Shown here one piece after another: positions 9,927 to 38,100 of a DNA stretch of 58,804 nt (position 1 is the stretch's first letter; every line of letters begins with the position of its first letter). The position numbers were made by a program, and so were the translations under genes. Source of the stretch: a virus; the IMG/VR virus record IMGVR_UViG_3300033150_000453, positions 1-58,804 of that record. The stretch is one strand, 5' to 3'. The notes below the pieces were generated by a model. It did not search any database, had not been told where the DNA came from, and saw only the letters and a program-made list of their open reading frames with translations.

Positions 9927-10063
9927 GTAGCGAGGTCGGCAAGCTCAAGTCCCGCATCATCATGCTAGAGCGGCAGGAAAGCGAGGTGAAGGCAATGCTG
10001 ACGGCCCTTACCGAGGCTGTGCAAGAAATTAAGATTCTGCTGGCCCAAACGGGCATCAAGTGA
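9854..10063 (+). CDS. Membrane-anchored coiled-coil protein (lysis or spanin-like candidate)
   Basis: 69 residues: a hydrophobic helix 'LFEIITLSGALIGVYV' (residues 7-22) followed by a charged coiled coil ('KLSSEVGKLKSRIIMLERQE' and onwards to residue 65). This architecture is common in small phage proteins next to endolysins (holin-associated or i-spanin-like). It overlaps the M15 peptidase start by four bases (GTGA). The assignment rests on topology and position only. Confidence 0.62.
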   Translation: MDSTITLFEIITLSGALIGVYVKLSSEVGKLKSRIIMLERQESEVKAMLTALTEAVQEIKILLAQTGIK

Positions 10064-10413
10064 AGTACTTCACCTACGACGAATTCGACAGCCCGGACCA
10101 GCCGGGGTCGGGCTACGAGATGGAGCCCATCTTTTTGGAGAAGCTTGATTTGGCTCGCGAGCTGAGCGGCGTTCCGTACGTCATCAACTCTGGCTATCGT
10201 ACGGAGTACTGGAATCAAAAAGTTGGGGGCCGCGTTGGAAGCAGCCATCTTACGGGCTGGGCGGCCGACATCCGTGCTAACAGTTCCAACCGCCGGTTTT
10301 TTGTTCTGAAGGGCCTTATCGAAGCCGGATTCGACAGGATTGGCGTGGGCACCAACTTCATCCACGTGGACTGCGACCCGAGCAAAGCAGGCAACGTAAC
10401 GTGGTTGTACTGA
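10060..10413 (+). CDS. Peptidase M15 family endolysin (zinc DD- or LD-peptidase)
   Basis: 117 residues, a complete small M15 (DD-carboxypeptidase/VanY-like) domain. The motifs are 'SGYRT' (residues 44-48), the zinc motif SSHLTGWAADI with His63 and Asp70, and the C-terminal 'FIHVDCD' with His102 as third ligand. It would cleave peptide stems or cross-bridges of host peptidoglycan at lysis. There is no signal peptide, so it needs a holin, and three small membrane-type proteins flank it. GTG start at 10060 overlapping the previous TGA. Confidence 0.9.
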   Translation: MKYFTYDEFDSPDQPGSGYEMEPIFLEKLDLARELSGVPYVINSGYRTEYWNQKVGGRVGSSHLTGWAADIRANSSNRRFFVLKGLIEAGFDRIGVGTNFIHVDCDPSKAGNVTWLY

Positions 10414-12599: not shown

Positions 12600-12859
12600 A
12601 GGAACGCATCATTGCTGCCGGCCGCGTGGCCGTGGAGCAACTCATCAAGGTTGCTCAGGAGGACATCCTGAAGCCGGGTGAGGATGATGACCTTGCGGCA
12701 GACAGGCTGAAAAATGCGGCGGCTACGAAGAAGCTGGCCATCATGGACGCCTTTGAAATCTTGAATCGCATCGACTCCGAAGAAGAGGAGTTGGAGCTGG
12801 CGTCGAGCTCTACCAAGACAGAAACTAAGGTGGGGTTTGCAGAGCGACGTTCCAGATAA
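12578..12859 (+). CDS. Probable small terminase subunit or terminase-associated protein
   Basis: 93 residues, helical: 'RLKERIIAAGRVAVEQLIKV', 'DDDLAADRLKNAAATKKLAI' and 'MDAFEILNRIDSEEEELEL'. Its place directly before TerL (23-base overlap), its size and its helical character fit a small terminase subunit. From memory, the 'LxADKLKNAAATKKxAIxDAFEIL' segment recurs upstream of TerL in phages of Bacteroidota. DNA recognition has not been shown from sequence. Confidence 0.62.
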   Translation: MQDSRRLKERIIAAGRVAVEQLIKVAQEDILKPGEDDDLAADRLKNAAATKKLAIMDAFEILNRIDSEEEELELASSSTKTETKVGFAERRSR

Positions 12860-15056
12860 GCTATACACCGTTCGGTACGACTACGTATCGAAGGGAGTGG
12901 TATCCAACAAGAACCGCGCGAAGACGTGGATGTATGGATACAACGAGAAGTACGACATGGTCGTTATCTCCAAGACCGGACAGATTGGAGACATCATAGA
13001 GGTCAACGGCCTCGTTATCGCGCTCCCCTTGGCGCCGAAAGACTTGCCCAAGGGCAATAACAAGTGGGTCCGCGAAGAGCTCCCCAAGGCCCTTTCTCGC
13101 GTCCAGAGCATCTTCCAATGGAATGATATGCCCAAGGCGTTCAAGGCGCAGTGGGTAGACTATATCGAGAGCGAATTCGACCGCCGGGAGGAGGGCCATT
13201 GGTTCATTAACAACGGCATCTCGACGTACATCACGGGCGCCCACTACATGTACTTGCAGTGGACGAGCATCGACGTGGGCTACCCCGACTACCGCGAGGC
13301 CAATCGGATATTCTTTATCTTCTGGGAAGCGTGCAAGGCGGACCCCCGCAGCTTCGGTATGGTATACCTGAAGATTCGTCGTTCGGGATTTTCGTTCATG
13401 GGGTCTTCGGAGTGCGTCAACACAGGAACTCTAGCCAAGGACTCACGAGTTGGGATACTCTCAAAGACAGGTAACGACGCGAAAAAGATGTTCACCGACA
13501 AGGTGGTACCCATCGCGAACCGACTTCCATTCTTCTTCAAACCGATACAGGACGGCATGGATAAGCCGAAAACGGAACTGGCGTTTCGTATACCTGCTTC
13601 GAAGATTACAAAGAAGAACATGTACGATGTGGAGGACGAAGAGATTTTCGGACTGGACACGACCATCGACTGGAAGAACACCGACGACAACTCCTACGAC
13701 GGAGAGAAGCTCCTCCTCCTCGTCCACGACGAGAGCGGAAAGTGGATTAAGCCCAACAACATCCTCAACAACTGGCGAGTTACCAAGACGTGTTTGCGCT
13801 TGGGCAGCAAGATTATCGGCAAGTGCCTTATGGGCTCCACTTCGAACGCGCTGGCGAAGGGAGGCTCAAATTTCAAGAAGCTATACGAGGATTCCGACCC
13901 GCGTGTACGCAACGCCAACGGACAAACCAAGAGCGGCATGTACTCCCTCTTCATCCCGATGGAGTACAATATGGAAGGCTTCATCGACGAGTTCGGCCAC
14001 CCGGTGTTCCACGCGCCGGAGAAGCCGGTGATGGGTGTCGACGGCGAGAAGATTCGTGGCGGGGCGGTAGACTACTGGGACGCGGAGGTCGAAAGCATGA
14101 AGAGCGACCCCGACGCCCTTAACGAGTTCTACCGACAGTTTCCGCGTACTGAGTCGCACGCTTTCCGGGACGAAAGCAAGCAGAGCCTATTTAATCTGAC
14201 CAAGATTTACCAGCAGATTGATTACGCCGACAGCCTTGTCAAAGAGCACTACCTCACGCGCGGTTCGTTTCAGTGGCAGAACGGAATCAAGGACAGCAAA
14301 GTCATCTTCAGTCCCGACAAGCGGGGCAGATTTAATGTGTCTTGGACGCCACCCCAGCACATGCAAAATCGTTGGATAGACAAACGTGGCGTTAAGTATC
14401 CCGGCAATGAACATCTCGGTTCCTTTGGATGTGACTCCTACGACATTAGTGGCACTGTTGGCGGTGGTGGTAGTAATGGCGCTCTGCACGGAATGACCAA
14501 GTTCCACATGGACGACGCGCCTACCAACGAGTTCTTCTTGGAGTATGTCGCCCGCCCGCAGACGGCGGAGATTTTCTTCGAGGAGGTGCTCATGGCTTGC
14601 ATCTTCTATGGTATGCCCATCTTGATTGAGAACAACAAGCCCCGCCTGTTGTACCACTTCAAGAACCGAGGGTATCGCGGGTTCTGTATGAACCGTCCGG
14701 ACAAGCACTTCAATAAGTTGAGTAAGACCGAGCGCGAGCTGGGCGGCATCCCCAACAGTTCTGAAGACGTCAAGCAGGCCCACGCCGCCGCCGTGGAGAG
14801 CTATATCGAAAAGCACGTTGGCGTGCTAGAGGACGGAGAAATTGGGATGATGCCGTTCGTCAGAACCCTTGAGGACTGGGCACGATTTGATATTAGCAAC
14901 CGTACTGCATTTGACGCCACCATTAGCAGCGGACTGGCTGTTATGGCCAACCAAAAACACCTCTATCTTCCTGAGCAGAAGAAGAGTTCAATAAGCATTA
15001 CCTTGCCGAGATATAACAATCGTGGTTATAGGAGCGAGCTGAATGAAGGACGTTAA
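12837..15056 (+). CDS. terL: Terminase large subunit (packaging ATPase and nuclease)
   Basis: 739 residues from TTG 12837. The ATPase part has a Walker A region 'YLKIRRSGFSFMGSSE' (about residues 177-192) that lacks the classical GK[ST], a clear Walker B 'LLLLVHDE' (292-299, ending in the catalytic Asp-Glu) and a coupling motif 'CLMGSTS' (330-336). The RuvC-like nuclease begins 'GSFGCDSYDISG' (Asp533, Asp536) and continues with 'PILIENNKPRLLYHFKNRGY' (Glu598). It pumps DNA into the prohead through the portal and cuts it. Small terminase-like and portal genes flank it with overlaps. Long TerLs with this style occur in crAss-like phages. Confidence 0.9.
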   Translation: MQSDVPDKLYTVRYDYVSKGVVSNKNRAKTWMYGYNEKYDMVVISKTGQIGDIIEVNGLVIALPLAPKDLPKGNNKWVREELPKALSRVQSIFQWNDMPKAFKAQWVDYIESEFDRREEGHWFINNGISTYITGAHYMYLQWTSIDVGYPDYREANRIFFIFWEACKADPRSFGMVYLKIRRSGFSFMGSSECVNTGTLAKDSRVGILSKTGNDAKKMFTDKVVPIANRLPFFFKPIQDGMDKPKTELAFRIPASKITKKNMYDVEDEEIFGLDTTIDWKNTDDNSYDGEKLLLLVHDESGKWIKPNNILNNWRVTKTCLRLGSKIIGKCLMGSTSNALAKGGSNFKKLYEDSDPRVRNANGQTKSGMYSLFIPMEYNMEGFIDEFGHPVFHAPEKPVMGVDGEKIRGGAVDYWDAEVESMKSDPDALNEFYRQFPRTESHAFRDESKQSLFNLTKIYQQIDYADSLVKEHYLTRGSFQWQNGIKDSKVIFSPDKRGRFNVSWTPPQHMQNRWIDKRGVKYPGNEHLGSFGCDSYDISGTVGGGGSNGALHGMTKFHMDDAPTNEFFLEYVARPQTAEIFFEEVLMACIFYGMPILIENNKPRLLYHFKNRGYRGFCMNRPDKHFNKLSKTERELGGIPNSSEDVKQAHAAAVESYIEKHVGVLEDGEIGMMPFVRTLEDWARFDISNRTAFDATISSGLAVMANQKHLYLPEQKKSSISITLPRYNNRGYRSELNEGR

Positions 15057-17478
15057 GGTTAACATCTCTACTGCTGGTTTCCCAAGTCAGTTCGTTTCTG
15101 ACGCGGAGAAGGCATCGGACGAGTACGGCCTTATGGTCGGACAAGCCATTCAATACGAGTGGTTCAAGAAAGACGGCAACCAGTGCCGTTTCTACAATCA
15201 GTGGCGAGACTTCAATCGTTTGCGCCTCTACGCTCGTGGAGAGCAAAGCATTGCCAAATACAAGAACGAACTCGCCATTGATGGTGACCTTTCGTATTTG
15301 AATTTGGATTGGACGCCGGTTCCTATCCTCCCGAAGTTCGTGGACATCGTCGTCAACGGCATGTCGGAGCGCCTTTTTAAGGTTCAGGCTTACGCTCAAG
15401 ACGCGCTGTCTCAGTCTAAGCGGAGCAAGTATCAGGACATGATTGAGGGACAGATGGTCGCCAAGCCTGTCCTCCAGCTCATACAGGAGAAGACGGGCGT
15501 AGACCCCTTTACCATGGACCCGGCTGACTTGCCGAGCACGGACGAGGAGCTGAGCTTGTACATGCAGCTTAACTACAAGCCTGCCATCGAGATTGCTGAG
15601 GAAGAGGCCATCAACACCATCCTTGAGGAGAATCACTATGTGGACACCCGAAAGCGCCTCGACTACGACCTAACCGTCTTGGGCATCAGCGTGGCCAAGC
15701 ATGAGTTCTTGCCGGGCTCGGGTGTGCAGGTTTCTTACGTCGACCCGGCCAACGTCGTATACAGCTATACGGAAGACCCTCAGTTCAAGGACTGCTTCTA
15801 CTGGGGTGAGATTAAGACACTTCCCATCACTGAGCTGATGAAGATTGACCCAAGCCTCACCAACGAGGACTTGGAGGAGATTAGCAAGTACAGCCAGAGT
15901 TGGTACGACTACTACAACGTGGCCCAGTTCTACGAGAACGATATGTTCTATCGTGACGTGGCTACGCTGATGTACTTCAACTACAAGACAACCAAGAAGA
16001 TTGTCTACAAGAAGAAGAAGCTCGACGGCGACGGAGCCCGGATGATTGAAAAGGACGACCAGTTCAATCCGCCGGACGAGATGATGGAGGAGGGCAACTT
16101 CGAGAAGGTCGAGAAGACCATCGACGTTTGGTACGAGGGCATCATGGTTATGGGCACCAATATCCTGCTGAAGTGGGAGGTGGCCGAGAACATGGTTCGC
16201 CCGAAGTCGGCAAGCCAGCACGCCCTGCCCAACTACGTGGCTACGGCCCCCCGTATGTACAAGGGCGTCATCGAGTCCTTGGTCCGGCGCATGGTCCCCT
16301 TCGCGGACCTCATCCAGATTACGCACCTCAAGCTCCAGCAGGTTATCGCACGTACGGTACCGGACGGGGTGTATATCGACGCCGACGGCCTCAACGAGGT
16401 TGACCTTGGGACGGGCAACGCATACAACCCTGAAGACGCTCTACGGCTCTACTTCCAAACGGGTAGCGTCATCGGTCGCTCCTTCACTCAGGACGGAGAG
16501 TTCAACCATGGCAAGGTTCCCATTCAGGAGCTTACCTCCAACAGCGGTGCGTCTAAGACGCAGATGCTGATTGGCAACATGAACCACTACCTGCAAATGA
16601 TTCGTGACGTCACAGGTCTCAATGAGGCCCGCGACGGTAGCACTCCCGACCCGCATAGTCTGGTCGGCTTGCAGAAGCTGGCTGCGGCAAACAGCAATAC
16701 GGCTACCCGCCACATTCTGGACGGCAGCCTGTACATGTTCCGGTCTCTGGCTGAGGCCCTGACGTATCGGGTTAGCGATATCCTTGAGTACGCTGACTTC
16801 AAGGACGAGTTCGCCAACCAGATTGGTAAGTACAACGTCAGTATCCTCGGTGAGATTAACGACCTGTACATCTACGACTTCGGCATCTTCATTGAGGTCA
16901 GCCCCGATGAGGAGCAGCGTGCGCAACTCGAGGCCAATATTCAAATGGCTTTGAGCAAGGGCGACATCAACCTCGAGGACGCCATCGACATCCGTGAGCT
17001 CAAGAACATCAAGCTCGCCAACCAACTGCTGAAGGTCAAGCGTATGGCCAAGCAGGAGAGGGAGCAGAAGATGGCTCTTCAGCAGCAGGCCATGCAGCAG
17101 CAAGCTAATATGCAGTCACAGCAAATGGCAGCTCAGACGGCTATGCAGAAGATTCAGGCTGAGTCGCAGGGCAAAATGCAGGTCAAGCAGGCCGAGATTG
17201 CATTTGAGATTGAGAAGATGCAGGCCGAGGCGCAGCTCAAGGCACAGCTTATGGAGCGCGAGTTCCAGTACCAGATGCAGATTGCTGGCATCCAAGAGCA
17301 GGGTTTGCAGCAGCGCGAGGACAACCGCGAGCAGGCCAAGGCCAGCCGCATTAGTCAACAAAATACTGAGCAGAGCAAGCTTATCGACCAACGGAAGAAT
17401 AACTTGCCGCCAATCAATTTCGAGTCGAATGAAGACAGCTTGGACGGCTTCGACTTGGCAGAATTTAGTCCGAGATAA
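15043..17478 (+). CDS. Portal protein
   Basis: 811 residues, between TerL (14-base overlap) and the scaffold gene. Typical portal features are 'FYNQWRDFNRLRLYARGEQS' near the N-terminus, 'LNLDWTPVPILPKFVDIVVN' (residues 85-104), 'VAKHEFLPGSGVQVSYVDPA', and an 'ASQHALPNYVATAPRMYKG' stretch. The long C-terminus (about 665-790) is Gln/Met/Ala-rich coiled coil ('QQQAMQQQANMQSQQMAAQT'), possibly the barrel helix or a flexible crown. Twelve copies form the DNA channel at one capsid vertex. The large size is usual for crAss-like portals. Confidence 0.85.
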   Translation: MKDVKVNISTAGFPSQFVSDAEKASDEYGLMVGQAIQYEWFKKDGNQCRFYNQWRDFNRLRLYARGEQSIAKYKNELAIDGDLSYLNLDWTPVPILPKFVDIVVNGMSERLFKVQAYAQDALSQSKRSKYQDMIEGQMVAKPVLQLIQEKTGVDPFTMDPADLPSTDEELSLYMQLNYKPAIEIAEEEAINTILEENHYVDTRKRLDYDLTVLGISVAKHEFLPGSGVQVSYVDPANVVYSYTEDPQFKDCFYWGEIKTLPITELMKIDPSLTNEDLEEISKYSQSWYDYYNVAQFYENDMFYRDVATLMYFNYKTTKKIVYKKKKLDGDGARMIEKDDQFNPPDEMMEEGNFEKVEKTIDVWYEGIMVMGTNILLKWEVAENMVRPKSASQHALPNYVATAPRMYKGVIESLVRRMVPFADLIQITHLKLQQVIARTVPDGVYIDADGLNEVDLGTGNAYNPEDALRLYFQTGSVIGRSFTQDGEFNHGKVPIQELTSNSGASKTQMLIGNMNHYLQMIRDVTGLNEARDGSTPDPHSLVGLQKLAAANSNTATRHILDGSLYMFRSLAEALTYRVSDILEYADFKDEFANQIGKYNVSILGEINDLYIYDFGIFIEVSPDEEQRAQLEANIQMALSKGDINLEDAIDIRELKNIKLANQLLKVKRMAKQEREQKMALQQQAMQQQANMQSQQMAAQTAMQKIQAESQGKMQVKQAEIAFEIEKMQAEAQLKAQLMEREFQYQMQIAGIQEQGLQQREDNREQAKASRISQQNTEQSKLIDQRKNNLPPINFESNEDSLDGFDLAEFSPR

Positions 17479-18584: not shown

Positions 18585-20018
18585 ATGGCAGGTTCAGTAC
18601 AAGCCAACCCCGGGTTCGATTTGCAACCCAGCGCAGAGCGCGTTGCTCTCGCAACCAATTACATCACCAACTTCGACTTCCTCAACCAGTATCTCCCCGA
18701 TACTTACGAGAAGGAGTTCGAGCGTTACGGCAACCGGACTGTGTCTGGCTTCCTTCGCATGGTTGGTGCCGAGATGCCCACCAACTCCGACATGATTAAG
18801 TGGGCGGAGCAAGGTCGTCTTCACACTAAGTACACCAACTGCACGTCGGCTGCTGCCGCGACTTCCAACACGGCTACGTGGACGGTGAACGACACCCTCA
18901 ACCCCGGCACTGGCGGCATCGCCATCCGCAAGGGGCAGACGGTGTTCATTACCGACAACACGGCGGCTAGTGGTCTTACCAACAAAGCTGTCGTGACGGA
19001 CGTCGACTATGCTAACGGCACTTTTGACGTCGCCTACTATGAGGGCGGTGGTCAGGCCGTTGCCGCAGCCGTGGTTTGTACCGTGATGATTTACGGTTCA
19101 GAGTTCAAGAAGGGCGACACTGGCATGGAGGACTCTCTCGAGGCCGACGACTTCATCTTCGACAACAAGCCCATCATCCTGAAGGACCGCTACGAAGTTT
19201 CCGGTTCCGACATGGCGCAGATTGGCTGGATTGAGGTGACGACCGAGAACGGCGCTACGGGATACCTGTGGTACCTGAAGTCCGAGCACGAGACCCGTCT
19301 CCGCTTCGACGACTACCTCGAGACCGCTATGATTGAGGCTGTCCCGGCCGCTCCGAACTCCGGTGCCGAGGGTGCCCTGAGTACTGCTACGGCTGCCGTG
19401 GGTACGGTCAACGCTGGTTCCGAGGGTATCTTCTACGCTGTGGAGACTCGCGGAAACCTCTGGTCTGGCGGTATCCCGTCCACCCTTGCTGACTTCGACT
19501 CCGTCATCGGACGTCTGGACAAGCAAGGTGCCATCGAGGAGAACGTCCTCTTCGTGAATCGTGAGATGAGCTTCGATATCGACGACATGCTGGCTGCGCA
19601 GAACAGCTACGGTGCCGGCGGTACGAGCTACGGTCTCTTCGACAACGACGAGCAGATGGCCCTCAACCTTGGCTTCACGGGCTTCCGTCGCGGTTACGAC
19701 TTCTACAAGTCTGACTGGAAGTACCTGAACGACCCGACGATGCGCGGTGGCCTTACCAACGGCGTTGTCAACGGTCTGCTTGTTCCGGCTGGTAGCACCA
19801 CGGTCTATGACCAAGTGCTCGGCAAGAACGCCAAGCGTCCGTTCCTCCACGTCCGTTACCGGGCGAGCGAGACCGAGGACCGTCGGTACAAGACTTGGAT
19901 TACCGGTTCCGCCGGAGGCGCTCGCACGAGCTCTCTGGACGCCATGGAAGTCCACTTCCTGTCCGAGCGTGCTGTTTGCGTCATGGGCGCCAACAACTTC
20001 TTCTTGTTCCAAGACTGA
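18585..20018 (+). CDS. Major capsid protein (HK97-fold expected)
   Basis: 477 residues in the standard slot after portal and scaffold. 'FDFLNQYLPDTYEKEFERYG', 'RTVSGFLRMVGAEMPTNSDM', 'FKKGDTGMEDSLEADDFIFD' and 'YKTWITGSAG' fit crAss-like major capsid proteins as I remember them. An insertion of about 80 residues (roughly 85-165, 'TSAAAATSNTATWTVNDTLN') may be a surface domain. Codons are regular and C-ending, as in a highly expressed gene. A hairpin follows the stop and the A-rich leader gaaaacagaaaacATG precedes the start. HK97 fold is inferred from position, not from visible motifs. Confidence 0.82.
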   Translation: MAGSVQANPGFDLQPSAERVALATNYITNFDFLNQYLPDTYEKEFERYGNRTVSGFLRMVGAEMPTNSDMIKWAEQGRLHTKYTNCTSAAAATSNTATWTVNDTLNPGTGGIAIRKGQTVFITDNTAASGLTNKAVVTDVDYANGTFDVAYYEGGGQAVAAAVVCTVMIYGSEFKKGDTGMEDSLEADDFIFDNKPIILKDRYEVSGSDMAQIGWIEVTTENGATGYLWYLKSEHETRLRFDDYLETAMIEAVPAAPNSGAEGALSTATAAVGTVNAGSEGIFYAVETRGNLWSGGIPSTLADFDSVIGRLDKQGAIEENVLFVNREMSFDIDDMLAAQNSYGAGGTSYGLFDNDEQMALNLGFTGFRRGYDFYKSDWKYLNDPTMRGGLTNGVVNGLLVPAGSTTVYDQVLGKNAKRPFLHVRYRASETEDRRYKTWITGSAGGARTSSLDAMEVHFLSERAVCVMGANNFFLFQD

Positions 20019-20081: not shown

Positions 20082-20816
20082 ATGAATAAAGACAAGACCT
20101 ACCGCCTCAAGCGTGGGCGAGCCCCCCTCTCCTTTATGATTCCCGGTCGTAGCACCAGCCGAAAGCCTCTCCTGTATTGGGATGAGGAAAAGGGTGAGAA
20201 CCGCGTTCTCCGCTACGCACGGAACCAAAAGAGCCCCTTCGAGGATGAGCAAGATGGTAACGCCATCGTCGAGCCCATCATTTTTGAAGACGGCTTCCTT
20301 CACGTCCCGAAGAATAATCCGGTCCTTCAGAGCTTCCTCGCGCACCACCCGCTGAATGGGGCGCAGTATGAGGAAGTCAACCTCGAGCGCGACGCCGAGG
20401 CCGAGGTGGAGCAGTTGAACCTTGAGGTCGATGCGCTCATCGAGTGCAAGGCTTTGACGCTGGACCAGCTTGAGTCCATGTCTCGCATCATGCTTGGCCT
20501 AGACCCTCGCAAGTACACTACGGCTGAGCTTCGCCGCGATATGCTCGTTGCCGTCCGCCGCGAGCCCGAGCACTTCCTTTCGTTGGTTAATGACCCCGAC
20601 GTGAAGTTGCAGGGTCAGGTGCAGCGGTTCTTCGACGACAACCTCCTTTCCTTCCGTCGCAACAAGACTGAGATTTGGTACAATGGTCCGTCCAACAAAA
20701 AGAAGTTGGTGACGGTACCGCATGGTAAAGACTATCTCGCTGTTGCGATTTCCTATCTACTTAGCGACGAGGGCCTTGAGCACCTCCGTGCCCTCGAGGC
20801 GTTGACTCAGGAGTGA
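20082..20816 (+). CDS. Conserved capsid-region protein of unknown function
   Basis: 244 residues. It begins with a basic stretch (MNKDKTYRLKRGRAPLSFMI), then 'PLLYWDEEKGENRVLRYARN', a glutamate-rich helix ('YEEVNLERDAEAEVEQLNLE') and 'TKTEIWYNG'-like C-terminal elements ('RRNKTEIWYNGPSNKKKLVT'). Proteins of this size directly after the capsid gene are usual in crAss-like phages and may be auxiliary capsid proteins. The gene is bounded by the post-capsid hairpin and a strong terminator, so it shares the capsid transcript. Confidence 0.6.
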   Translation: MNKDKTYRLKRGRAPLSFMIPGRSTSRKPLLYWDEEKGENRVLRYARNQKSPFEDEQDGNAIVEPIIFEDGFLHVPKNNPVLQSFLAHHPLNGAQYEEVNLERDAEAEVEQLNLEVDALIECKALTLDQLESMSRIMLGLDPRKYTTAELRRDMLVAVRREPEHFLSLVNDPDVKLQGQVQRFFDDNLLSFRRNKTEIWYNGPSNKKKLVTVPHGKDYLAVAISYLLSDEGLEHLRALEALTQE

Positions 20817-20851
20817 ACGCCTAACGCTTCCACCTTACTGATAAAGAAAAG

Positions 20852-20877
20852 AGCCACCTTCGGGTGGCTTTTTTTTT
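20852..20877 (+). terminator. Rho-independent terminator between capsid and tail genes
   Basis: AGCCACC (20852-20858), TTCG tetraloop, GGTGGCT (20863-20869), then an unbroken T-run to 20877: a textbook intrinsic terminator. It lies only 13 bases before the ATG of the T9SS-sorted protein, leaving no room for a promoter between them. Downstream genes must be read by read-through or from a promoter inside the 20082 gene. It probably lowers tail-gene transcription relative to capsid. Confidence 0.93.
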
Positions 20878-20890
20878 GGACCTTGGTGGT

Positions 20891-22123
20891 ATGAAGAGAT
20901 GGCTGCTACTCCTTTGGTTCCCAACAGCTTCGTACGCTCAGTGCGACCTTGAGCTCCTCGACTTCGACCCTATCGTCGGTGAGATTACGGTTGCGTTCAA
21001 CAACACCGAGAGCTGCGGGGGACTGGCGGGACCGACTGGGATAGCTGAGATTCAGTTTGGCTTTCAGGCTTTGGACTCCAACTGCAACGCCCTGAATCAG
21101 GGGTGGGACTTCCCGTGGGGTCTGAGCATTCCCGACGACAGCAACCACCCGGGGTGGATTTACTCTGCTACGACTACGGTTCAGTCTACCAACTGGACCA
21201 ATCTGGACGTATGGGCCGACTACAACGTAGACCCCCCGTACTATACGGGCGATACCATCACGTTTCCCCTCGATGACTTCTATCAGGCTGGTAGCACTAG
21301 CCTGTTCTCCAACCTGCTTAACGCCTTTGACTTCTGGTTGGGTCAGGGCTTGGGCATACAGGCCGTCATCTGGCAGATAAGCTATGGGCCTACTATGTAT
21401 GCTGCCGACGGCGGCTGGGCTGAGGTGGGCATCAATGGCGACGGTACCGGCGGTGGGGGTGGCCTCTATGAGGACCAGAACTGGCAAGACAATTGGCTCA
21501 TCACCTGTCCGGACGAGGTGCCTGTGGTCGTCTATGACACGGTGTATATCGAGTTGCCACCCGATACTATCATCGAGTACGTCTATGACACGACTTACAT
21601 AGAGCTTCCGCCCGTGGTGGAGTTCGATACCATCTCTATCACCCTGTACGACACGGTCTTCGTTCAGCTCCCTCCGATTACGATTTACGACACGACGTAT
21701 ATCGAGCTCACGCCTGATACGGTGGTGTTGTGGGATACGGTCACGTGGTATCTGACTGACACGGTCTATCTAACGCTCTTAGACACCATCGTCGTCGAAG
21801 TAGACTGCGAGACGGGTGAGGAGTGCTTGGGTATTATTGAGTGCCCCATTTACGCTCCTAACGCCTTTACGCCAGACGGCGACGGGGTCAACGACGTGTG
21901 GTTTGTGGAGGCTCCTGACGATTGCTGGGATAATGTGAACGTCAAGGTCTACTCCCGGTGGGGCGACTTGGTGTGGGCTTCGAGCTCATTCAACGAGCTG
22001 TGGGACGGTGGCTACGATGTGGCATACGTACGTGACGACGTGTACACGTATCACTTCATAGCTCGGAATATCCACACCAATCAGTGGGTGGAAAGGAGTG
22101 GCCATGTAGTGGTATTGAGATGA
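20891..22123 (+). CDS. Secreted protein with T9SS type B (gliding-motility-type) C-terminal sorting domain
   Basis: 410 residues from ATG 20891; a GTG at 20864 would start inside the terminator. Residues 1-16 are a Sec signal peptide (KR, then LLLLWF, cleavage after ASYA before Gln17, the usual Bacteroidota site). Residues 210-304 are Asp-Thr repeats built on 'YDTVYIELPPDT' and 'YDTTYIELPP'. Residues 321-410 match the T9SS type B / CHU_C sorting domain: 'PNAFTPDGDGVNDVW', 'VKVYSRWGDLVW', 'LWDGGYD', 'RDDVYTYHF' and terminal 'GHVVVLR'. Known role of the domain: export through the type IX system to the Bacteroidota cell surface. Phage use, for example surface modification or superinfection exclusion, is inference. 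Confidence 0.88.
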   Translation: MKRWLLLLWFPTASYAQCDLELLDFDPIVGEITVAFNNTESCGGLAGPTGIAEIQFGFQALDSNCNALNQGWDFPWGLSIPDDSNHPGWIYSATTTVQSTNWTNLDVWADYNVDPPYYTGDTITFPLDDFYQAGSTSLFSNLLNAFDFWLGQGLGIQAVIWQISYGPTMYAADGGWAEVGINGDGTGGGGGLYEDQNWQDNWLITCPDEVPVVVYDTVYIELPPDTIIEYVYDTTYIELPPVVEFDTISITLYDTVFVQLPPITIYDTTYIELTPDTVVLWDTVTWYLTDTVYLTLLDTIVVEVDCETGEECLGIIECPIYAPNAFTPDGDGVNDVWFVEAPDDCWDNVNVKVYSRWGDLVWASSSFNELWDGGYDVAYVRDDVYTYHFIARNIHTNQWVERSGHVVVLR

Positions 22124-22136
22124 TTATCTTTAGAGA

Positions 22137-22844
22137 ATGATTAACTCGGTCCGTAATACCGTATTGTCGATTCTGAATAAGAACAACTACGGATACATCT
22201 CCCCCTCGGACTTCAACCTGTTTGCGAAGCAGGCGCAGCTCGAAATCTTCGACGGGTACTTCAAGGAGCTCAACCAAGTCATCAACGCCGAAAACGCGCG
22301 CATGTCGGGCACGGAGTACGCCGACTTGAACAAGGGCACGCGAGAATCCATTGACATCTTTTCTCGAACGGCAACGCTTACTCAAACTGGCGCTGGCGTA
22401 AACACCTATTTCACGCCAAGTCAGGCGACTACAACGGACGACTACTACCTCATCAACAAGGTTTTAGCTAGTGGCGTAGAGGCAGAGCGGGTGACTCACG
22501 GAAAGATTACGCTCCTCAACAGTAGCCTGTTGACAGCGCCGAGCGTGCAGTATCCGGCATACACACTTGAAGCAGACCGCATCACCCTTTTCCCAAACAC
22601 TATCACTGGGGCAACCGATGTGACGTGTCAGTACATTCGTTACCCACGCGACCCGCAGTGGACTTACAGTGTGCTGTCGGGCGGAGAGCCGGTCTTCAAC
22701 CAGAGTCTTTCGGACTACCAAGACTTTGAGGTGCCTATTGATGATGAAACCGACCTCGTGTACCGCATCTTGCAGATGGCCGGCTTGAGCATCCGCGAGG
22801 GAGACGTGTACCAATACGCTAACGCCGAGGAAGCCCAAAACTGA
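22137..22844 (+). CDS. Head-tail connector (ring) protein, crAss-like
   Basis: 235 residues: 'NTVLSILNKNNYGYISPSDF', 'LFAKQAQLEIFDGYFKELNQ', then a beta-rich middle and a helical end 'DETDLVYRILQMAGLSIREG'. The helical N-terminal 'Y-x-SPxxFNxFAKQAQLEIF' is typical of proteins that sit under the portal in crAss-like and marine podoviruses. Its position before the 312-residue and 1286-residue tail genes supports an adaptor or ring role. The exact ring is not assignable. Confidence 0.65.
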   Translation: MINSVRNTVLSILNKNNYGYISPSDFNLFAKQAQLEIFDGYFKELNQVINAENARMSGTEYADLNKGTRESIDIFSRTATLTQTGAGVNTYFTPSQATTTDDYYLINKVLASGVEAERVTHGKITLLNSSLLTAPSVQYPAYTLEADRITLFPNTITGATDVTCQYIRYPRDPQWTYSVLSGGEPVFNQSLSDYQDFEVPIDDETDLVYRILQMAGLSIREGDVYQYANAEEAQN

Positions 22845-23782
22845 TGCCATACCTAGCCAGCGACTACGTCTATTACGAGAACGGCGGTACCGCGCCTGAA
22901 GATGCCAACTGGGGCAGCTATCAGTACGTTACCCTACAAGACATCGTAACCAACTTCCAGCTCATGTACATGGGCAACCACTCCTTGGTCAACAACGAGG
23001 AGCGGTACAAGGTCTTGTTCCACGCCAAGCGTGCTATCCAAGAGCTCAACTACGACGCGTTCAAGGAGGTCAAGGTCCTCGAGCTCAACGTCTGCGACCA
23101 GCTCCGTTTCGTGCTACCTCCCGACTACGTCAACTGGGTTCGCATCAGCCTGTACAAGGACGGTGTCCTGCGCCCGCTGACGGAGAACATCCAGACCAAC
23201 TTTAGCGGTGCGTACCTGCAAGACAACGAGTGCCGCATCCTCTTCGACGCGGCCGGCAATATCCTGCGCCCTCAGAACTCGACCATCGACTTCGACCGCA
23301 TTACGGGAACCAAGAAGAGCATCTACCTCAACATCTACCTCAATGAGAGTAATAGGTTCGACGGGCAGCTCGGATACGAGTGCGATGGGGATTGGTACTT
23401 CGACTACAACATCGGGGCCCGGTACGGGCTGAACACGGAGACAGCTAATTCGAACCCGACGTTTAGTATCGACCGCAAGGGCGGCGTCATCAACTTCAGC
23501 AGTGGCATCGCCGACGAGCTGGTCATCCTCGAGTACGTCAGCGACGGCATGGAGGCCGGCGACAATTCGGCGATTACGGTCAACAAGCTTTTCGAAGAGT
23601 ACGTCTATGCGTACATCAACTACTCTATTCTGGACGCCAAGCTGGGCGTACAGGAGTACATCGTGAACCGCGCTCGGAAGAAGAAGAACGCCTTGTTGCG
23701 TAACGCCAAGATTCGCATCAGCAACATCCACCCGGGACGGTTGCTTATGAACCTACGCGGTCGCGGCAAGTGGATTAAGTAA
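22844..23782 (+). CDS. Tail tubular / head-completion protein (P22 gp4-like position)
   Basis: 312 residues, one-base overlaps with both neighbours. It shows 'ERYKVLFHAKRAIQELNYDA', 'LRFVLPPDYVNWVRISLYKD', 'LLEEYVYAYINY'-like helices (here FEEYVYAYINYSILDAKLGV) and a basic end 'NALLRNAKIRISNIHPGRLL'. From memory, this layout is that of the crAss-like tail tubular protein, which joins the portal to the tail hub. The call leans on gene order. Confidence 0.68.
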   Translation: MPYLASDYVYYENGGTAPEDANWGSYQYVTLQDIVTNFQLMYMGNHSLVNNEERYKVLFHAKRAIQELNYDAFKEVKVLELNVCDQLRFVLPPDYVNWVRISLYKDGVLRPLTENIQTNFSGAYLQDNECRILFDAAGNILRPQNSTIDFDRITGTKKSIYLNIYLNESNRFDGQLGYECDGDWYFDYNIGARYGLNTETANSNPTFSIDRKGGVINFSSGIADELVILEYVSDGMEAGDNSAITVNKLFEEYVYAYINYSILDAKLGVQEYIVNRARKKKNALLRNAKIRISNIHPGRLLMNLRGRGKWIK

Positions 23783-30157: not shown

Positions 30158-32124
30158 GCTATTTCAAGTACGCCGAACGGTCATCTGAATCTCGGGTAGA
30201 CTGGAATGAGATTAGCAAGGGCATGGTCGACATGCTCAAGGAGCAGACGCGCCTGCGCAACGAGAAGCTCGACGAGGCGGTAAAGCTCCAAGGCGAAGTC
30301 ACGACCACCCTGTCCGAGGCCCCGATGGGGTCCGACGTGAATGCCAACCAGCGGGTGGCAGAGTTTGCGTCCGACGCGCAGGAGTATTCGCTCATGATGA
30401 ACAAGCTGTGGCGTAGCGGGGAGATGAGCTACCGGGAGTACATGGCTGCGACCAACAACTTCAAGACCAATACCGAGGGATACCTCAGTCAGGCCGAGAA
30501 GTACGCCGCCAACTACGAGGTTCACAAGAAGCGCATGGAGGAGCAGATTGCCTCTGGCGTAGAGGTGTCTGAGCTGGCCCGTGTCGAGGACTTTGGCAAC
30601 TTCAGCAAGTTCACCCCGGTTATCGACGCGCCTACAGGCGCTATTGGATTGGTGGGAGAAGACGGAACCAAGTACGCCAGCATGACTCAGCTTGGCGTAG
30701 CCGTTATGTCTCAGTACGACAGGCTCGATGTCAATGCCGCTACTACTTCGGTCGCAGAGCAGATGGGCACTACGGTTGAGGTGATTAAGAGAGGCGGTGT
30801 TCGGACTCTGGAAAGCGCATTGCAGAACGAAGATTACATCGCCGCCGAGGACAACGCTATCAGCGGCATCCTTGTTGGCGACAACGCCCATACGTCTGTT
30901 TTGGTCGATTACGACATGGGTGCATACAGCACGACCCACGACATCAACGACGCCATCAACGACCCCAATGCCATCCTTATGGTCCCTAGCTCTAGGAATC
31001 CAAACAGGATGATTGGTGCTGTCGAAGACGATGCTGCCTTTGATAGGTACATCGACGAGCAAGCCACCCGAAACGGTCAGCCTCTGACCGATGGGGAGAA
31101 GGCCACTCTCCGACGCCACCGTGACGCGCAGCGCGAGCAGTCTTTCGAAACCGTTCGCAAGCAGCTCCGTGCCCGACTGGACTTCAAGGAGACTCCGATG
31201 GCGGACCGGCAGCCGCCAAAGCCATCCGACAGAGAGAAGGCTGGGCGCTCTTCCGCTGAAACGGGAATAAACAACTTGCAGGCCATCTACACCGCCACGG
31301 ATGACACGAAGGACAAGATGATTGCCGCCATCAACTACTTCGAGGGGCTCAATGAGGGGCTTGACCTTGAGGTGGTGACCCGTGATAATCAGCGTACTCT
31401 TGCCATCAAGCGTGAGGGTGAGGATGAGACGCGATACATTTCCATGGAAACCGATTACCCCACTTTTGTGGAGTCGGTCTCCACCTTCGTTATGCCGAAC
31501 ACGCAGTACTTGAGTTCTGCGCTTGAAGAGAACCCCCTCCCCGAGGGGGCAACGCGTGGAACGGCTTTGGGTGGTGTCGTGATGGAACGTGACGTAGACC
31601 TCGAAAACATCGGTGCCGAAGTGGTGACGTACGATGAAGATGGGGACCAAATTGAGACCACTTTCCGAGGCTTTATGGAGGGCCTTCCCGTGCCGGAAAG
31701 TGATATGTCAAATGAAGACGACAAAACCATTGTTGCGGTAAACGAAATTAACAGCGCCCTTGACCAGTTGAATTTGACCGATAAGATTACGGTCAGTTCC
31801 GTAGTCGAGAACACACTGGAAGACCTGTATGGCAGGACTTTAGGCACGTCGCCCATCGACTACCCCGGCATAAAAATTCAGGCTCCGAACATGCCGAATG
31901 GAATTCTCATTTCGCATGAGCCAAATGACGTCAACACCATTGGACCTATCTTGGAATTGATTGCTACGGGACGCCCTGTAACAATGGAAGAACTATACGC
32001 TCTCATGGGTGATGAGTCTATTGCAATCACCAACAAGCTGATTGAGAAGGGACACTTGAACATCGAGCGGCCCGAGATTCCGAATCCAAACGCGCAAACA
32101 GCTTCAGGAGGTAACGTACGGTAA
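30154..32124 (+). CDS. Probable internal virion (ejection) protein B
   Basis: 656 residues, acidic and largely helical: 'GMVDMLKEQTRLRNEKLDEA', 'YREYMAATNNFKTNTEGYLS' and 'KYAANYEVHKKRMEEQIASG' form long coiled stretches. A charged middle and a beta-like end ('DYPGIKIQAPNMPNGILISH') follow. There is no signal or membrane segment. Its position between the 418-residue and the 3218-residue proteins matches the three-protein internal core of T7-like and marine podoviruses. The assignment is by position. Confidence 0.58.
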   Translation: MSYFKYAERSSESRVDWNEISKGMVDMLKEQTRLRNEKLDEAVKLQGEVTTTLSEAPMGSDVNANQRVAEFASDAQEYSLMMNKLWRSGEMSYREYMAATNNFKTNTEGYLSQAEKYAANYEVHKKRMEEQIASGVEVSELARVEDFGNFSKFTPVIDAPTGAIGLVGEDGTKYASMTQLGVAVMSQYDRLDVNAATTSVAEQMGTTVEVIKRGGVRTLESALQNEDYIAAEDNAISGILVGDNAHTSVLVDYDMGAYSTTHDINDAINDPNAILMVPSSRNPNRMIGAVEDDAAFDRYIDEQATRNGQPLTDGEKATLRRHRDAQREQSFETVRKQLRARLDFKETPMADRQPPKPSDREKAGRSSAETGINNLQAIYTATDDTKDKMIAAINYFEGLNEGLDLEVVTRDNQRTLAIKREGEDETRYISMETDYPTFVESVSTFVMPNTQYLSSALEENPLPEGATRGTALGGVVMERDVDLENIGAEVVTYDEDGDQIETTFRGFMEGLPVPESDMSNEDDKTIVAVNEINSALDQLNLTDKITVSSVVENTLEDLYGRTLGTSPIDYPGIKIQAPNMPNGILISHEPNDVNTIGPILELIATGRPVTMEELYALMGDESIAITNKLIEKGHLNIERPEIPNPNAQTASGGNVR

Positions 32125-35100
32125 TGAACGACGAGCAGGTACTCAAGGATTTTATTGCGACCGCGCAGGCCAATAATTATAACTATGATGTGGTCATGCC
32201 CAAGTTCCCGGAGCTTGAAGGCTACGACCTTCAGGTGCTCAAGGACTACATCGCTACAGCGGAGGCCAACGATTACAACTATGAGGTAATCAACCCCAAG
32301 TTCCCCGAGCTGTTCGACGATAAAAAAAAAGACGATACGGAATCTGTATCGGAGGTTGGTTCATTGGAGCCACCCGTTGTTGAGGAACAAGCTGAACGGG
32401 CCCGGAACCTACGCCCCACTGCGCGGCTGAACGAAGACGGAACGGAGTCTACCGTCTTGATGGCTTCGATGGAAGTCGACGGGAAGAACGTGGCTATCCC
32501 AACCCTATTCCCCAAGGACCCAAACAACGTCACGTCGAGCCCCGAGGACTGGATGGAGCTGGACGCCATGGAGGCATACAACACCGCCCTTGAGCGCGGA
32601 GAAGTCTTTGAGTTCGAAACGCCCGAGGAGGCCAACGCTTTCGCTGAGGGCTCTTGGAAGGTTGACACCCCCGTTGAACAGCCCCGCACGGAGGCGGACA
32701 CTTTCTTCGACATGGCTTTGGAGGCGGTTACGCCCGAGCTAATCGACAGGGGCGACGAGGACAAAGTAGCCTTTGAGCTCAACGACCTTCTCAACCAGTT
32801 CGGTTTCAATGTCGAGACGTCTGGGTTTCTGACCGACGCCTTGAAGGTGACGGCCAAGAACGGCCAGAGCATTGACGTAGACCTTGACCCGTTCCGAACC
32901 AGTACTGAGGTGGCGGAGTCGGACAAGCTCCGTCAGTTCCTTGTCGACAACCGCCGTGAGTCAGAGAACCTGCTCAAGCAGGAAGACGACTATCAGGCCG
33001 CTAAGCTGAAGTTCGCCACCGAGAAGCAGATTGACGAGAACGTAGCCCGCCTGAACCAACAGGCGAACGAGTTCCAGCAGTTCGCTCGCGAGGTCGACGA
33101 TGCGGCTTTGCAGATTCAAAAGAAGCACGCTGGCTTAGAGAAATACACCGAGGAGTATTTGCGTGCCAACCCCGAGGAATACGACGAGTACAAGGCTCAA
33201 TACGATGCTTACGCAGCCGATATGGCTGCTCTCGAAGACTTGGACAAACAGTTGCAGCGGCGTAGCCAAGAGCTGCTGTATGCCGACCAAGAAATCAATC
33301 GCGCCGCAGGAGAGTACATCCAAACCAAGGGTGAGTTCTTTAGGTCAGACATCCCCGGCTTGGCCAAGCGTGCCCTAGCGGAGGGGACGTCTCGTTTGGC
33401 ACGGGGAAGCGTAGACCTTATGGTCGACATCGGACTCCCCGGTCGCGCAATCGACTACAAGCTCGGCACCTTGGACAGGGCCGACGAGGCGGAAGACTTT
33501 GTGTTGGCAGCCAACGAGATTGGCCTAACCAATATCCCGGAGGACGCGGTTGAGAACTTCGACGCTTGGTGGGACTCCCTCCCCGAGGACCTTCAGCAAG
33601 ACATTACTGCTAAGCACCTCGACAACTACGCCAAAGCCCTCAAGTATGGTGGCGAAGATGCGGCGAAGATGTCTGGCGTCGACTTGGAAAAGGGACTCGG
33701 CGGTGACGCATTTGATGGAACGATGTGGGTCTTCGGAGAGTCCGAGGGCGACCTTACTTACGACCTGACTAAAGAGGGTTGGTGGGGTGGCGCGATTCTC
33801 GGTGCCATTGAATCCATTCCCGCCTTTGTTGGCTTCGGGAAAAGCGTCGTGGGCAAAGCCCTTGGTGCGGGTACGCGCTTGGGTAGGCTCTACACACAGA
33901 CTTCCGACCACGTTGACGAGGAGTTCCGCAAAGACCCCGAGTTGCGTAACGTAAGTGAGGCCGATAAGCTCAAGCTGAAAGTCCCGCTGTCGCTGACGGT
34001 AGCTGCACTGGAGAATGTTGGCTTCAGGAACATGGTGCAGTCGAGGAACCTGATGGGCAAGGCGCTTCTTAAGATTGCCGGTAAGCCCACCGAGCGGGCT
34101 ACGGGCCGAACATTTCGAGAGATTATTCAGCGTGAGGTCAATAACGGTGTGGCACGCGCTGGACTCACTCTTACTGCCGGCGCCGCTGCCGAGTTCGAGA
34201 CCGGCTTTGCCCAAGAGGGTGCCGATATCGCTATGAAGAAGCTGTGGAACTTGACGTCAGAAAACCCAGAGTTCGAGACCCCGGACAATGTCCTTATGGC
34301 GATGCTTAACGGCGGTGCTCAGGAGGCTGTGGGTTCTTTCGTCCTCGGCGCCCCCACTGCTGTTGGTGCGTATGCTAACAAGTCTGACTTCTCCAAGCTG
34401 TCAAATGCGGAGCTGGCGGTATTCGAGTGGATGTCCAACCCCGGCAACCGTGGTGCTACCAAGCCTATGATTGCTGCCCACCTAAAGAACCTTGTCAACC
34501 AAGGCAAGCTGACGGGGGCTGAGGCCAAGGCTGCACTCGACGGTTACGAGCGTACCTCACAAGCCATGGATGGCATTCGTGGTGTAGATGGTATGACGCC
34601 CGAGCAAAAGAAGTCGTACCTCGCTATGGAGCTCCGCAAGCAGGAGTTGCAGAGGCAGCTTGACGGTCGTGCCGCACCGTTCAAGAAAGCCATCCAGCAG
34701 GAGATTGACGACCTAGGAATTAGACAACAAGAGATAGCAGATGCCGTTCAAGAGCAAAGCACAGAGAAGGTTCCTACACGCGACGAATCCGGAGCTCGCG
34801 CAGAAGTGGGAAAAGAAGTACAAGACGAGCAAGAACCTCCCGTCGAAACTCAAGAAGCGGAAGAAGAAGTAGAGAGAGACTCTCTTTTTGAGCAGGCAGC
34901 TCGGGCCGTCATTGAGTCTGGTATAGCCGATTCTGGCGCTCTGATGCGGAAGTTTAAAATCGGTAATAACCGGGCCGGTAAAATCATTGACCAGCTTGAG
35001 CAGGCAGGAGTTGTTAGTGAGTTTAGTCCAGAAGGCCGAAAGGTCCTGATGGACGAAGGCGCTTTAGATAATCTGTTGGCTCCAACAGAGGAGGTCGCAC

Positions 35101-38100
35101 CTGCTGAGGAAACGGCCCCCACAGAAAGTGCCGCACCAGAGCTGACCGAAGAGGAGCGTGCCGAGGCCGAGGCTTTGGAGGCGCAGTTTGGTGCCGAGGG
35201 TACACCCGACGTTACCGAAACCACTGACGATGGCGTCAATGTGCGCACGCGTGAGGGCAGCAAGCTGACCAAGAAGCAACAGCGGTATGTGGAGCAGGCC
35301 AACAACGTATTGAAGGCCCTTCAGTCCGTTATCCCGGATGTCAAAGTCGTAGCATACCAAACTACCGAGCAGTACCGTGAGGCTACTGGCCGGAGCGGTA
35401 GCGGGATGTACTTCGACAAGACCATCCACATCAACCTCGCCAAGGCCAATAGCCGTACTGCTTTCCACGAGGCGTTCCACGCCATCTTCTTGGAACAGCT
35501 ACGTAACCCCGAGAGTAACGAAGAGGCGCAGGCGAAGGCAAAGGCGTTGCTGCGCACCATCCGTAAGGCTATCCCGCCGAAGTCGGTTCTGGCTAACCGT
35601 ATCGACAACTTCCTCACTCAATACGAGGAGCAGGACATCAGCGAGGAGGCTTTGTCGGAAGTCTTCGGGTACATCGCCAGTGGCTATACCGCCCTCGGCC
35701 CACAGGTCAAAAGCAGGATTAAGGCCGCCATCAAGGGCTTTATCGAAGGCATCATCGGTCGCAAGCTGGGGTCGCAGTGGTCACAAGGCGACCAAGCTGT
35801 GCTTGACGCCATGCGGTTGCTGGCTGGTAAGGTCGAGCGTGGTGAAGCCCTGACCGAAGAGGATGTCGCTGGTATCGAGGTCAGTGAGGAGGCTGCCGCC
35901 AAGGAGGAAGCCGAGGCAGAGCTGGACCGTGGCATCAGTGCGATTCAGAAGCTGCGTCAGGATGCTTTGAGTGCCGCTAATGACGTACTTGGGCCACTGG
36001 CTGAGAAGGTGACCAAGACCGACAAGGGTCGGGAGACCCTGCGCAAACTGGTCAAGCGTATCGACGACAAGAAGCTCGCGTCCATCGAGAAGAAGATGCG
36101 CGATGCGAAGAAGTCGAAGAAGATGTCCGAGGCCGACAAGGCTGAGCGCATTGCGTCATTACAGCGTGATGCGGAGGCGGAGATGGAGCGGCTCGCCAAG
36201 GAGCGTGAGGCTGTAGCCAAGGAAGCTGAGGAGGCTTTGGAGAAGCTCAAGCCCATCGAGGAGAAGCAGGAGCAGGAGTCCAAGCTGGCCGATATCAAGC
36301 GGCGGCAGAAGGAGATTACCGAGCAGCTTTCCAAGGACAAGCGCGAGGCAAAGAGGACTTTCGAAGGCGAGGAGCTCAAGGAGTATGTGAAGGGTCTTAC
36401 CGAGGAGGCTGAGGCCAAGCGGGCTGCTTTGCGTGACGAGATTGCTGAGCTGCGCGGGAAGAAGAAGAAGGTCGAGGAAGAAGCCCCGGTGGAGGAGGCA
36501 CCCGTTGAGGAGACCCCCACCGTCGGCACCATCCGCACCAAGGTTGGCGTCGAGGCGTTCGGGAAGTTGGAGGCTGCGGTGCGCGACTACTTGGAGTATA
36601 TGGATGCTCTCGACCCGGAGCAGGACATGACCCGTGGTCAAAAGGCTGCGTCCACACGACGGGTAAACAAGGTGGTGAATCTGGCTTTCGAGCTAGGCTT
36701 AACTGATGCGGAGCAGGCGGTGGTGCAGAACTCCGTACAGGAAAAGATTGATGCAGAGAAGCGGGCAGCCGAGGCGAAGGAGGCCGAGCAGGCCGAGCTC
36801 ACGGCAGCAGCCGAGCGGGCTAAGAAGGCAGCGGAGGAGCCCACGGTGGAGGAAACGGTAGAGGAGGAGCCCACGGTGGAGGAGACGGTGGACGACGCAG
36901 AGATTGCCCGGCTTGAGGAGGAGCTGCGCAAGGCTGAGGAGGACCTTGACTTCTACAACCGTGACGAGCCGGACAATACCAAGTACCCGAAGTACAAGAG
37001 CTTTAAGCAGGCGAAAGAGGCCATCAATGCGGGCAAAGACCCGCGCTTCCATAGTATGGAAGACGCGCCGTCTATGGGTGCGCAAACAGCTAATGAGAAC
37101 TTAGATAGAAAGTACACGGCTGAGCAAAAAACTCCCTATATAACGGGTTTGGAGACGACCATGGTGTTTGAGGACAGTGCTCGCGACGCCTTGGTTTCCA
37201 TCAACAGGACATACAGAGCCACTAAGAGCAGAGACACCGCCGGTGTGGGTGAAGACCTTGAGAGCACGGTCGAAGACCTAAAAAAACAACTCGCCGAAGC
37301 CAAGAAGACTCAGGCGCCCAAGGCTACGGAGGCGCAGAAGCGTGCTGCTATCGAGGGCGTCAGCGTGGAGGATTTCACCAAGGAGCAGCAGCGGGTAGAG
37401 CGCCAGCGGAAAGACACGCTGTCTCGGCAGGCGAAGCGGGAGCTGGACGGGCTGAAGGGGAAGACCGATAAGGCGTCCAAGGCCAAGAGGGCAGAGCTCA
37501 AGGAGTTCATGTCCAACCTCGGTACCATGTCCGTGGACGAGGCTCAGGCGAAGCGGCAGCCCAAGGCTCGGGAGCAGCGTGCTTCGGAGGTGTTGGGTCG
37601 GTACAAGTTCCGTCCGGACGGAAGTCTGATTGGCGATGCAAAGCTGGCAGCAGAGCTGCGTGGCTACATGAAGAAGTTTGGCTTCGGAGTGGAGCAGTTC
37701 GGAGACCGCGACGACAGGTTCTATATCGTGGAAGACGGCAAGCGGGTCAAACCTGCTGACGTCATTGCCAGCGACGAGGCGTTCATTGCCGACCGAGAGG
37801 CCATCGAAGCAGAGCAGCGCGAGGCGCAGGCCGCAGAGAGCTTGGCCCGTGCCGAGGCTGAAGACCTGCGTACCGAGGGACTCAAGCGGTACCAAGACGA
37901 GTACCTCGACTTCCCGGAGGGGATGATTCCTCCGAGCCGGTTGTCGGCCCGTGAGCAGCGTAGCGACCTCGGAGATTCCACCGAAGGGTTCTCTACCTCA
38001 GCCGTGGTTAAGTTCGCCAAGGAGCGCGGCTTCTCCGACAAGGCCATCCTCGCCGTACGCCCCGGGGCAGAGCAAGCCATCGCCGAGTACGACGCCAAGG

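Follow-up and report, generated by a model that had tools for sequence, protein, structure and literature searches.

The phage gene at positions 20,891 to 22,123 of the virus record IMGVR_UViG_3300033150_000453 encodes a protein of 410 aa which, judged by its sequence, is very probably exported to the surface of the host cell through the type IX secretion system (T9SS) of the host. We tentatively propose that it is a phage-dedicated type B cargo protein which presents a stalked domain at the surface of the infected cell, where it would most likely block adsorption or re-adsorption. Its N-terminal head domain is found across many phages that are unrelated to each other and hardly anywhere outside them, which makes it look like an instrument held in common by phages for changing the host surface during infection.

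The record analysed here, referred to as the window, is linear, podovirus-like and 58.8 kb (58,804 nucleotides) long. The genes for the terminase large subunit (TerL), the portal protein and the virion structural proteins form an ordered series on the plus strand, which agrees with the initial claim of phage genes on the same strand as the cargo gene, and the minus strand carries replication and recombination genes encoding a helicase, a primase-like protein, an exonuclease and a Sak-like annealing protein. The following features surround the gene:

12837..15056, plus strand: terminase large subunit (phrog_6681)
15043..17478, plus strand: portal protein (PHROGs match; relatives in isolate phages)
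18585..20018, plus strand: virion structural protein, probably the major capsid protein judging by its match to phrog_13704
20082..20816, plus strand: upstream neighbour of 244 aa, assigned to a functionally uncharacterised phage family (phrog_34748)
20844..20877, plus strand: terminator-like hairpin with T run, AGCCACC-TTCG-GGTGGCT-T(n), directly before the ATG
20891..22123, plus strand: T9SS type B cargo gene, 410 aa (translation, profile matches, second contig at 100% identity)
22137..22844, plus strand: downstream neighbour, virion structural protein (phrog_14543)
22844..23782, plus strand: virion structural protein (phrog_13977)

Translation of the open reading frame was exactly as described in the initial annotation. 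The gene had been placed there between capsid and tail genes; the virion genes on both sides were found, and the downstream ones are annotated only as "head and packaging, virion structural protein", so that "tail" is an interpretation. The description as an inserted gene holds, as in close relatives the flanking genes are directly adjacent or the gap contains other small genes. A second viral contig carries the gene at 100% identity with the same flanks, and the gene is therefore not an artefact of one contig. The closest record to the window is the uncultured podovirus MW202828 (60.9 kb, portal identity 80%); among isolates, the portal relatives listed (46-50% identity) are phages of Flavobacterium, Cellulophaga, Tenacibaculum and Maribacter. 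These genera belong to the Bacteroidota, the phylum which owns the type IX system. An ORF of 3218 aa (32124-41780) follows the virion genes.

Because a strong hairpin with its T run occupies 20852-20877, immediately ahead of the ATG, simple co-transcription with the capsid genes should not be assumed. The element was found before the cargo gene in every member of the window lineage looked at, whichever gene lies upstream. Where the gap is empty, relatives possess another terminator, and a TATCTTTG-like sequence stands between it and the next virion gene. The ATG at 20,891 is the likely start, since a GTG at 20,864 falls inside the hairpin. A scan with a promoter consensus which does not cover Bacteroidota promoters yielded no recognisable promoter. 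Late expression is likely from the position among the virion genes, with the terminator-like hairpin intervening. In the window lineage a conserved GGACCTT stretch accompanies the hairpin, the T run and the cargo gene.

The protein can be divided into four parts:

20891..20938, plus strand: Sec signal peptide MKRWLLLLWFPTASYA (residues 1-16), predicted to be cleaved before Gln17; QCD invariant in 69 of 69 distinct homologues
20939..21505, plus strand: head domain (residues 17-205), beta-rich, exchanged between phage lineages (alignments, AlphaFold2, trees)
21527..21805, plus strand: Asp-Thr-rich stalk (residues 213-305) with 10 DT pairs (shuffle count; pLDDT about 30)
21836..22120, plus strand: type B sorting domain (residues 316-410) with the CHU_C/TIGR04131 core at 322-394 (profiles, conserved columns, PorZ fold match)

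Both ends of the protein carry signals for export. The QCD of the window protein stands at the same place behind the leader in all 68 other distinct full-length homologues, and a Gln directly after the cleavage site corresponds to the Q-rule of Bacteroidetes (PMC5837995, PMC10653852), which agrees with the Sec leader and cleavage site initially proposed. The signal peptides were judged by sequence and a simple set of hydropathy and charge rules instead of SignalP; 67 of the 69 homologues passed, and the remaining two pass with a longer upstream start. At the C-terminus, the profile check called for initially gave matches above the cut-off for PF13585 (CHU_C; residues 322-391, 53.4 bits with a cut-off of 27, E 2.9e-14) as well as TIGR04131 (residues 322-394, 42.6 bits with a cut-off of 35). 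All 69 distinct full-length homologues matched CHU_C, with exactly one match per record in 21 of 21 records, and the type A domain TIGR04183 had no match in the window. Strongly conserved columns of the sorting domain are PNxFTPxxDGxND, RWGD, WDG, VY and GHVxVxR; five conserved motifs of the C-terminal domain are needed for secretion of type B cargo (PMC12618676). The best PDB fold match of the full-protein model was PorZ, a surface component of the T9SS, and other fold matches were disregarded because the AlphaFold2 model of the whole protein is poor (pLDDT 63). Export via Sec and the type IX system of the host, as the initial annotation supposed, is thus strongly supported at the sequence level, as both ends are kept in 69 of 69 homologues despite diverging middle and C-terminal sequences.

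The head of about 190 aa was modelled with a pTM of 0.77. No known enzyme or binding domain was detected in it by searches of Pfam, NCBIfam, PHROGs and the PDB (sequence or fold), and the fold search against the PDB gave no match at E<=0.001. In BFVD two viral fold matches were obtained, one of them 82% identical and the other an entry of Virus NIOZ-UU157 named only by its C-terminal domain. The Asp-Thr repeats which had been noted initially are a genuine excess: the stalk contains 10 DT pairs in 93 residues with 2.1 expected, a number reached in none of 10,000 shuffles.

Searching viral contigs with the whole protein yielded 55 loci, and a profile of the head gave 151 stretches, 80 of which were kept. 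The 69 distinct full-length proteins comprise that of the window, one from the misbinned contig L060 and others from viral contigs; they span at least five phage backgrounds, contigs of 110-199 kb included. Among the top viral matches of a search with the sorting domain, whose ranking followed resemblance to a single member and which therefore favours the family, the head was present in 61 of 77 ORFs with a sorting domain, and most of the other 16 are cut by contig ends. In 84,980 prokaryote species, scanned with a single degenerate peptide pattern which may miss remote kin, only one match to the head was found, on the phage-like contig L060 (WLWP01000006.1, 61.6 kb), which is binned in a Pseudomonadales metagenome-assembled genome (MAG). 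We treat it as a phage contig: the 5.8-Mb MAG has no other CHU_C match, and the neighbouring genes match phage families, one of them weakly a tail protein. The contig has the appearance of a phage that infects Bacteroidota. Among 50,697 GenBank phage records there was no match to the head domain, and three records have the sorting domain only. The phage records LR745206.1 (635 kb) and LR756502.1 (642 kb) have three match places each, the best to the sorting domain, without the head. At one end of the contig carrying L124 (L042:8315-8458) the sequence departs from the cargo gene and resembles what we take, by eye, to be a DNA polymerase III alpha (PHP) region; this is probably an assembly chimera.

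Comparison of the neighbouring genes, by which lineage membership was set and checked independently of the cargo protein, allowed the assignment of the cargo genes to different loci. In the window lineage (A) the gene is preceded by the 244-aa gene and followed by the first of two genes for virion proteins. In a second podovirus lineage (B), with identities of about 48-50% for TerL and about 32% for the portal, it is flanked by a GroES-like gene and TerL. At locus C it adjoins DUF5675 genes, at locus D an endolysin-like gene and a second exported protein, and loci E and F are on contigs of 110, 162 and 199 kb. The gene is dispensable cargo at the two main loci: as expected of a phage moron, it is absent from close relatives with intact flanks. 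Among 78 further relatives with the flanking virion gene only a few carry the export gene, which is found in a minority of lineage A; in most of them the gap either is empty, with a length of about 60-112 bp, or contains small ORFs (about 93-108 aa) that lack a signal peptide. In lineage B it is present in 3 of 58 evaluable close relatives. Since most close relatives lack it, the gene is not essential.

The slot between the GroES-like gene and TerL in lineage B often contains glycosyltransferases, a formyltransferase, a DegT aminotransferase or a capsule-synthesis-like gene (L209:3724-4839, L221:3820-4977, L213:2820-4825, L244:2609-4968, L277:3021-4055). These sugar-modifying genes could also be candidates for a change of the cell surface, and could serve other ends. 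In several lineage B phages tRNA-Ile(TAT) and tRNA-Arg(TCT) genes adjoin the cargo gene (L018:9560-9863, L041:6957-8578, L097:11508-11815, L080:2601-2675, L091:3551-3625), and the tRNA of L080 and that of L091 extend into the cargo reading frame at its upstream end. A second small exported protein of 119-140 aa, consisting of a signal peptide followed by QC and a terminal dockerin-like calcium-loop motif, was noted at several loci (L043:7624-7983, L053:9641-10063, L060:8308-8673 and 20 others). It adjoins the T9SS cargo gene, or lies one gene off, in every locus where it was found, and in some lineages the two genes look like a module.

Head and sorting domain of the family have different histories. 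The head of the window protein is 89% identical to that of L005 from lineage B and 68% to that of L003 from its own lineage; its sorting domain, conversely, is closer to that of L003 (93%) than to that of L005 (43%). Within the window lineage the sorting domains share 66-93% identity, compared with 33-52% across lineages. In the sorting-domain tree lineage A forms a single branch (97*); in the head tree it is scattered, with at least five changes forced by starred branches, and its monophyly was rejected (delta lnL 317, p-AU 0.0002). The trees are of a quick type and the sorting domain offers few columns; the result for the A clade is nevertheless clear. Between the heads of the window and L005 dN is 0.064 with saturated synonymous sites, and between those of the window and L011 dN is 0.11 and dS 1.66. 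By these rates the head is under strong purifying selection. A recent transfer of heads was rejected; as synonymous sites are near saturation and third codon positions only about 50% identical, the exchanges are old. Alignments and trees together indicate that heads are passed from one lineage to another, and that each lineage retains its sorting domain.

A Sec signal peptide brings a protein to the periplasm, and the leader would deliver the cargo protein there. The type B domain would then take it out through the host T9SS, with a PorP/SprF-like shuttle of the host helping and anchoring it at the surface (PMC12618676, PMC9143113). Type B cargo proteins need a cognate shuttle of this kind, and cross-talk occurs only between very similar sorting domains: it succeeded at 68%, but not at 43% or 26% (PMC12618676). 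The pairing also sets the final place of the cargo (PMC12618676, PMC9143113). A linked shuttle gene is frequent and not obligatory, as orphan type B cargo proteins use unlinked shuttles (PMC12618676). PorP_SprF (PF11751) was absent from the window and 20 further virus records, the positive control being found, so the host must supply the shuttle. Shuttle specificity and the lack of a phage-encoded shuttle together predict a lineage-bound sorting domain with an exchanged head; the sorting domain of each lineage presumably fits the shuttle of its own hosts, and the functional head would be traded between lineages. The split between shared head and lineage-bound sorting domain leads to the prediction that sorting domain and host shuttle are cognate pairs, and the host of an uncultured phage might be suggested by its sorting domain.

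The infected cell would thereby be coated with stalked heads, which may cover or bind surface structures used for adsorption. Competing phages would be excluded, and released progeny would not be lost on infected cells and debris. That the displayed head blocks adsorption or re-adsorption is a possibility which we put forward with reserve; the other roles suggested initially, modification of the receptor or an action on neighbouring cells, are likewise compatible with the results. It is supported by the phage resistance of Flavobacterium columnare with mutations in gld/spr (T9SS/gliding) genes (PMC9233685) and by the sugar-modifying genes in the alternative slot. Against it, the cargo gene of two other lineages lies beside endolysin-like or DUF5675 genes, which fits a role in lysis equally well. 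The wider proposal, that a phage-only head module shared among unrelated Bacteroidota phages, with its sorting domain matched to the host shuttle, constitutes a widespread superinfection exclusion via the host T9SS, in some lineages as a two-gene module with the second exported protein, is somewhat unlikely.

Other functions of an exported protein have to be weighed against blocking. The stalked head might act as an adhesin, which sticks infected cells or debris to cells or surfaces and thus brings progeny to new hosts or alters motility. Type B cargo proteins of Flavobacterium are largely putative adhesins, their sorting domain directs them to the gliding machinery or a static anchor (PMC12618676), and a stalk with a globular head is an adhesin-like layout; however, neither a known adhesin fold nor a carbohydrate-binding one was recognised in the head by profile and PDB fold searches, and we consider this function unlikely. 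A helper of lysis or release, exported at the end of infection and weakening the outer membrane or capsule, would agree with the endolysin-like neighbour in L043 and L051 and the DUF5675 neighbours in another lineage. It is rather improbable, since no enzyme family was recognised, the signal peptide is the sole membrane-active segment, the cargo gene of the window lineage is not beside the M15 peptidase gene (10060-10413), and a stalked surface anchor would be odd for a lytic factor. The protein could also jam secretion: an abundant sorting domain would compete for the host shuttle and switch off gliding adhesins used as receptors, the head being secondary. A shuttle-specific type B domain without a phage-encoded shuttle and the phage resistance of T9SS/gliding mutants (PMC9233685) are compatible with this, but conservation across lineages is greater for the head than for the sorting domain and a pure competitor needs no head, which makes jamming improbable.

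A virion decoration or fibre protein with a chance Ig-like C-terminal domain and a hydrophobic start, suggested by the position among virion genes and by small proteins in the slot of relatives which may be virion parts, is very improbable and was rejected as the main reading, as the signal peptide with invariant +1 Gln and the curated T9SS domain are both kept in 69 of 69 homologues from unrelated phage groups and loci; the initial argument that a virion component would need no signal peptide is sound. T9SS cargo genes are common in Bacteroidota hosts, which would allow for a recent chance pickup of a host gene or cellular contamination of the contig, but with the head almost absent from the prokaryote species, 69 distinct versions nearly all in virus records, an identical second contig and a GC content of 0.55 (window 0.544) this can practically be dismissed, contamination being rejected by the second contig and the phage-only distribution.

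Display on the infected cell with a possible block of adsorption is thus the reading we retain. The hijacking of secretion by phages is mostly unexplored in Bacteroidota, and the T9SS cargo family offers a handle on how the surface of infected cells is changed.

T5 Llp is a small lipoprotein with which a phage blocks its receptor. By analogy, it may share with the window protein the proposed principle only, a phage protein at the surface which stops adsorption, and it differs in sequence, export route and anchor. Type B cargo proteins of Bacteroidota such as SprB and PG1035 resemble the window protein in the Sec leader, the Q-rule site, a C-terminal domain above the cut-offs and the layout of a surface protein; in contrast to them, the window protein is phage-encoded, its head is nearly confined to phages and no PorP/SprF shuttle is encoded in the same genome. 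Q-rule proteins of Porphyromonas gingivalis phages, for which modification of the outer membrane was proposed, are likewise adapted to the signal peptidase rule of Bacteroidetes, but no type IX sorting domain is reported for them and the term is absent from the text (PMC10367356). Near the crAss-BACON ORFs of cluster 2 phages there are also T9SS sorting domains, which lie beside the head section of these phages of Bacteroidetes; the repeats there are BACON repeats, and neither the head of the window protein nor domain exchange is described (PMC6949934). The type A cargo of a cryophage is similarly phage-encoded, T9SS-tagged and variable, with competition or superinfection exclusion as proposed role, and comprises known enzymes and PA14 in one phage, whereas the window family is of type B, has a novel head and occurs in several phage groups (PMC7468147). 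Our literature search returned no account of phage-specific type B proteins that form one family over several lineages and swap their heads, and no phages with the name "gliding motility-associated C-terminal". Phage-encoded T9SS-tagged genes as such have already been reported (PMC7468147, type A; PMC6949934); what appears new here, judged by that search, is a type B, phage-specific cargo family which extends over several phage lineages and exchanges its heads between them.
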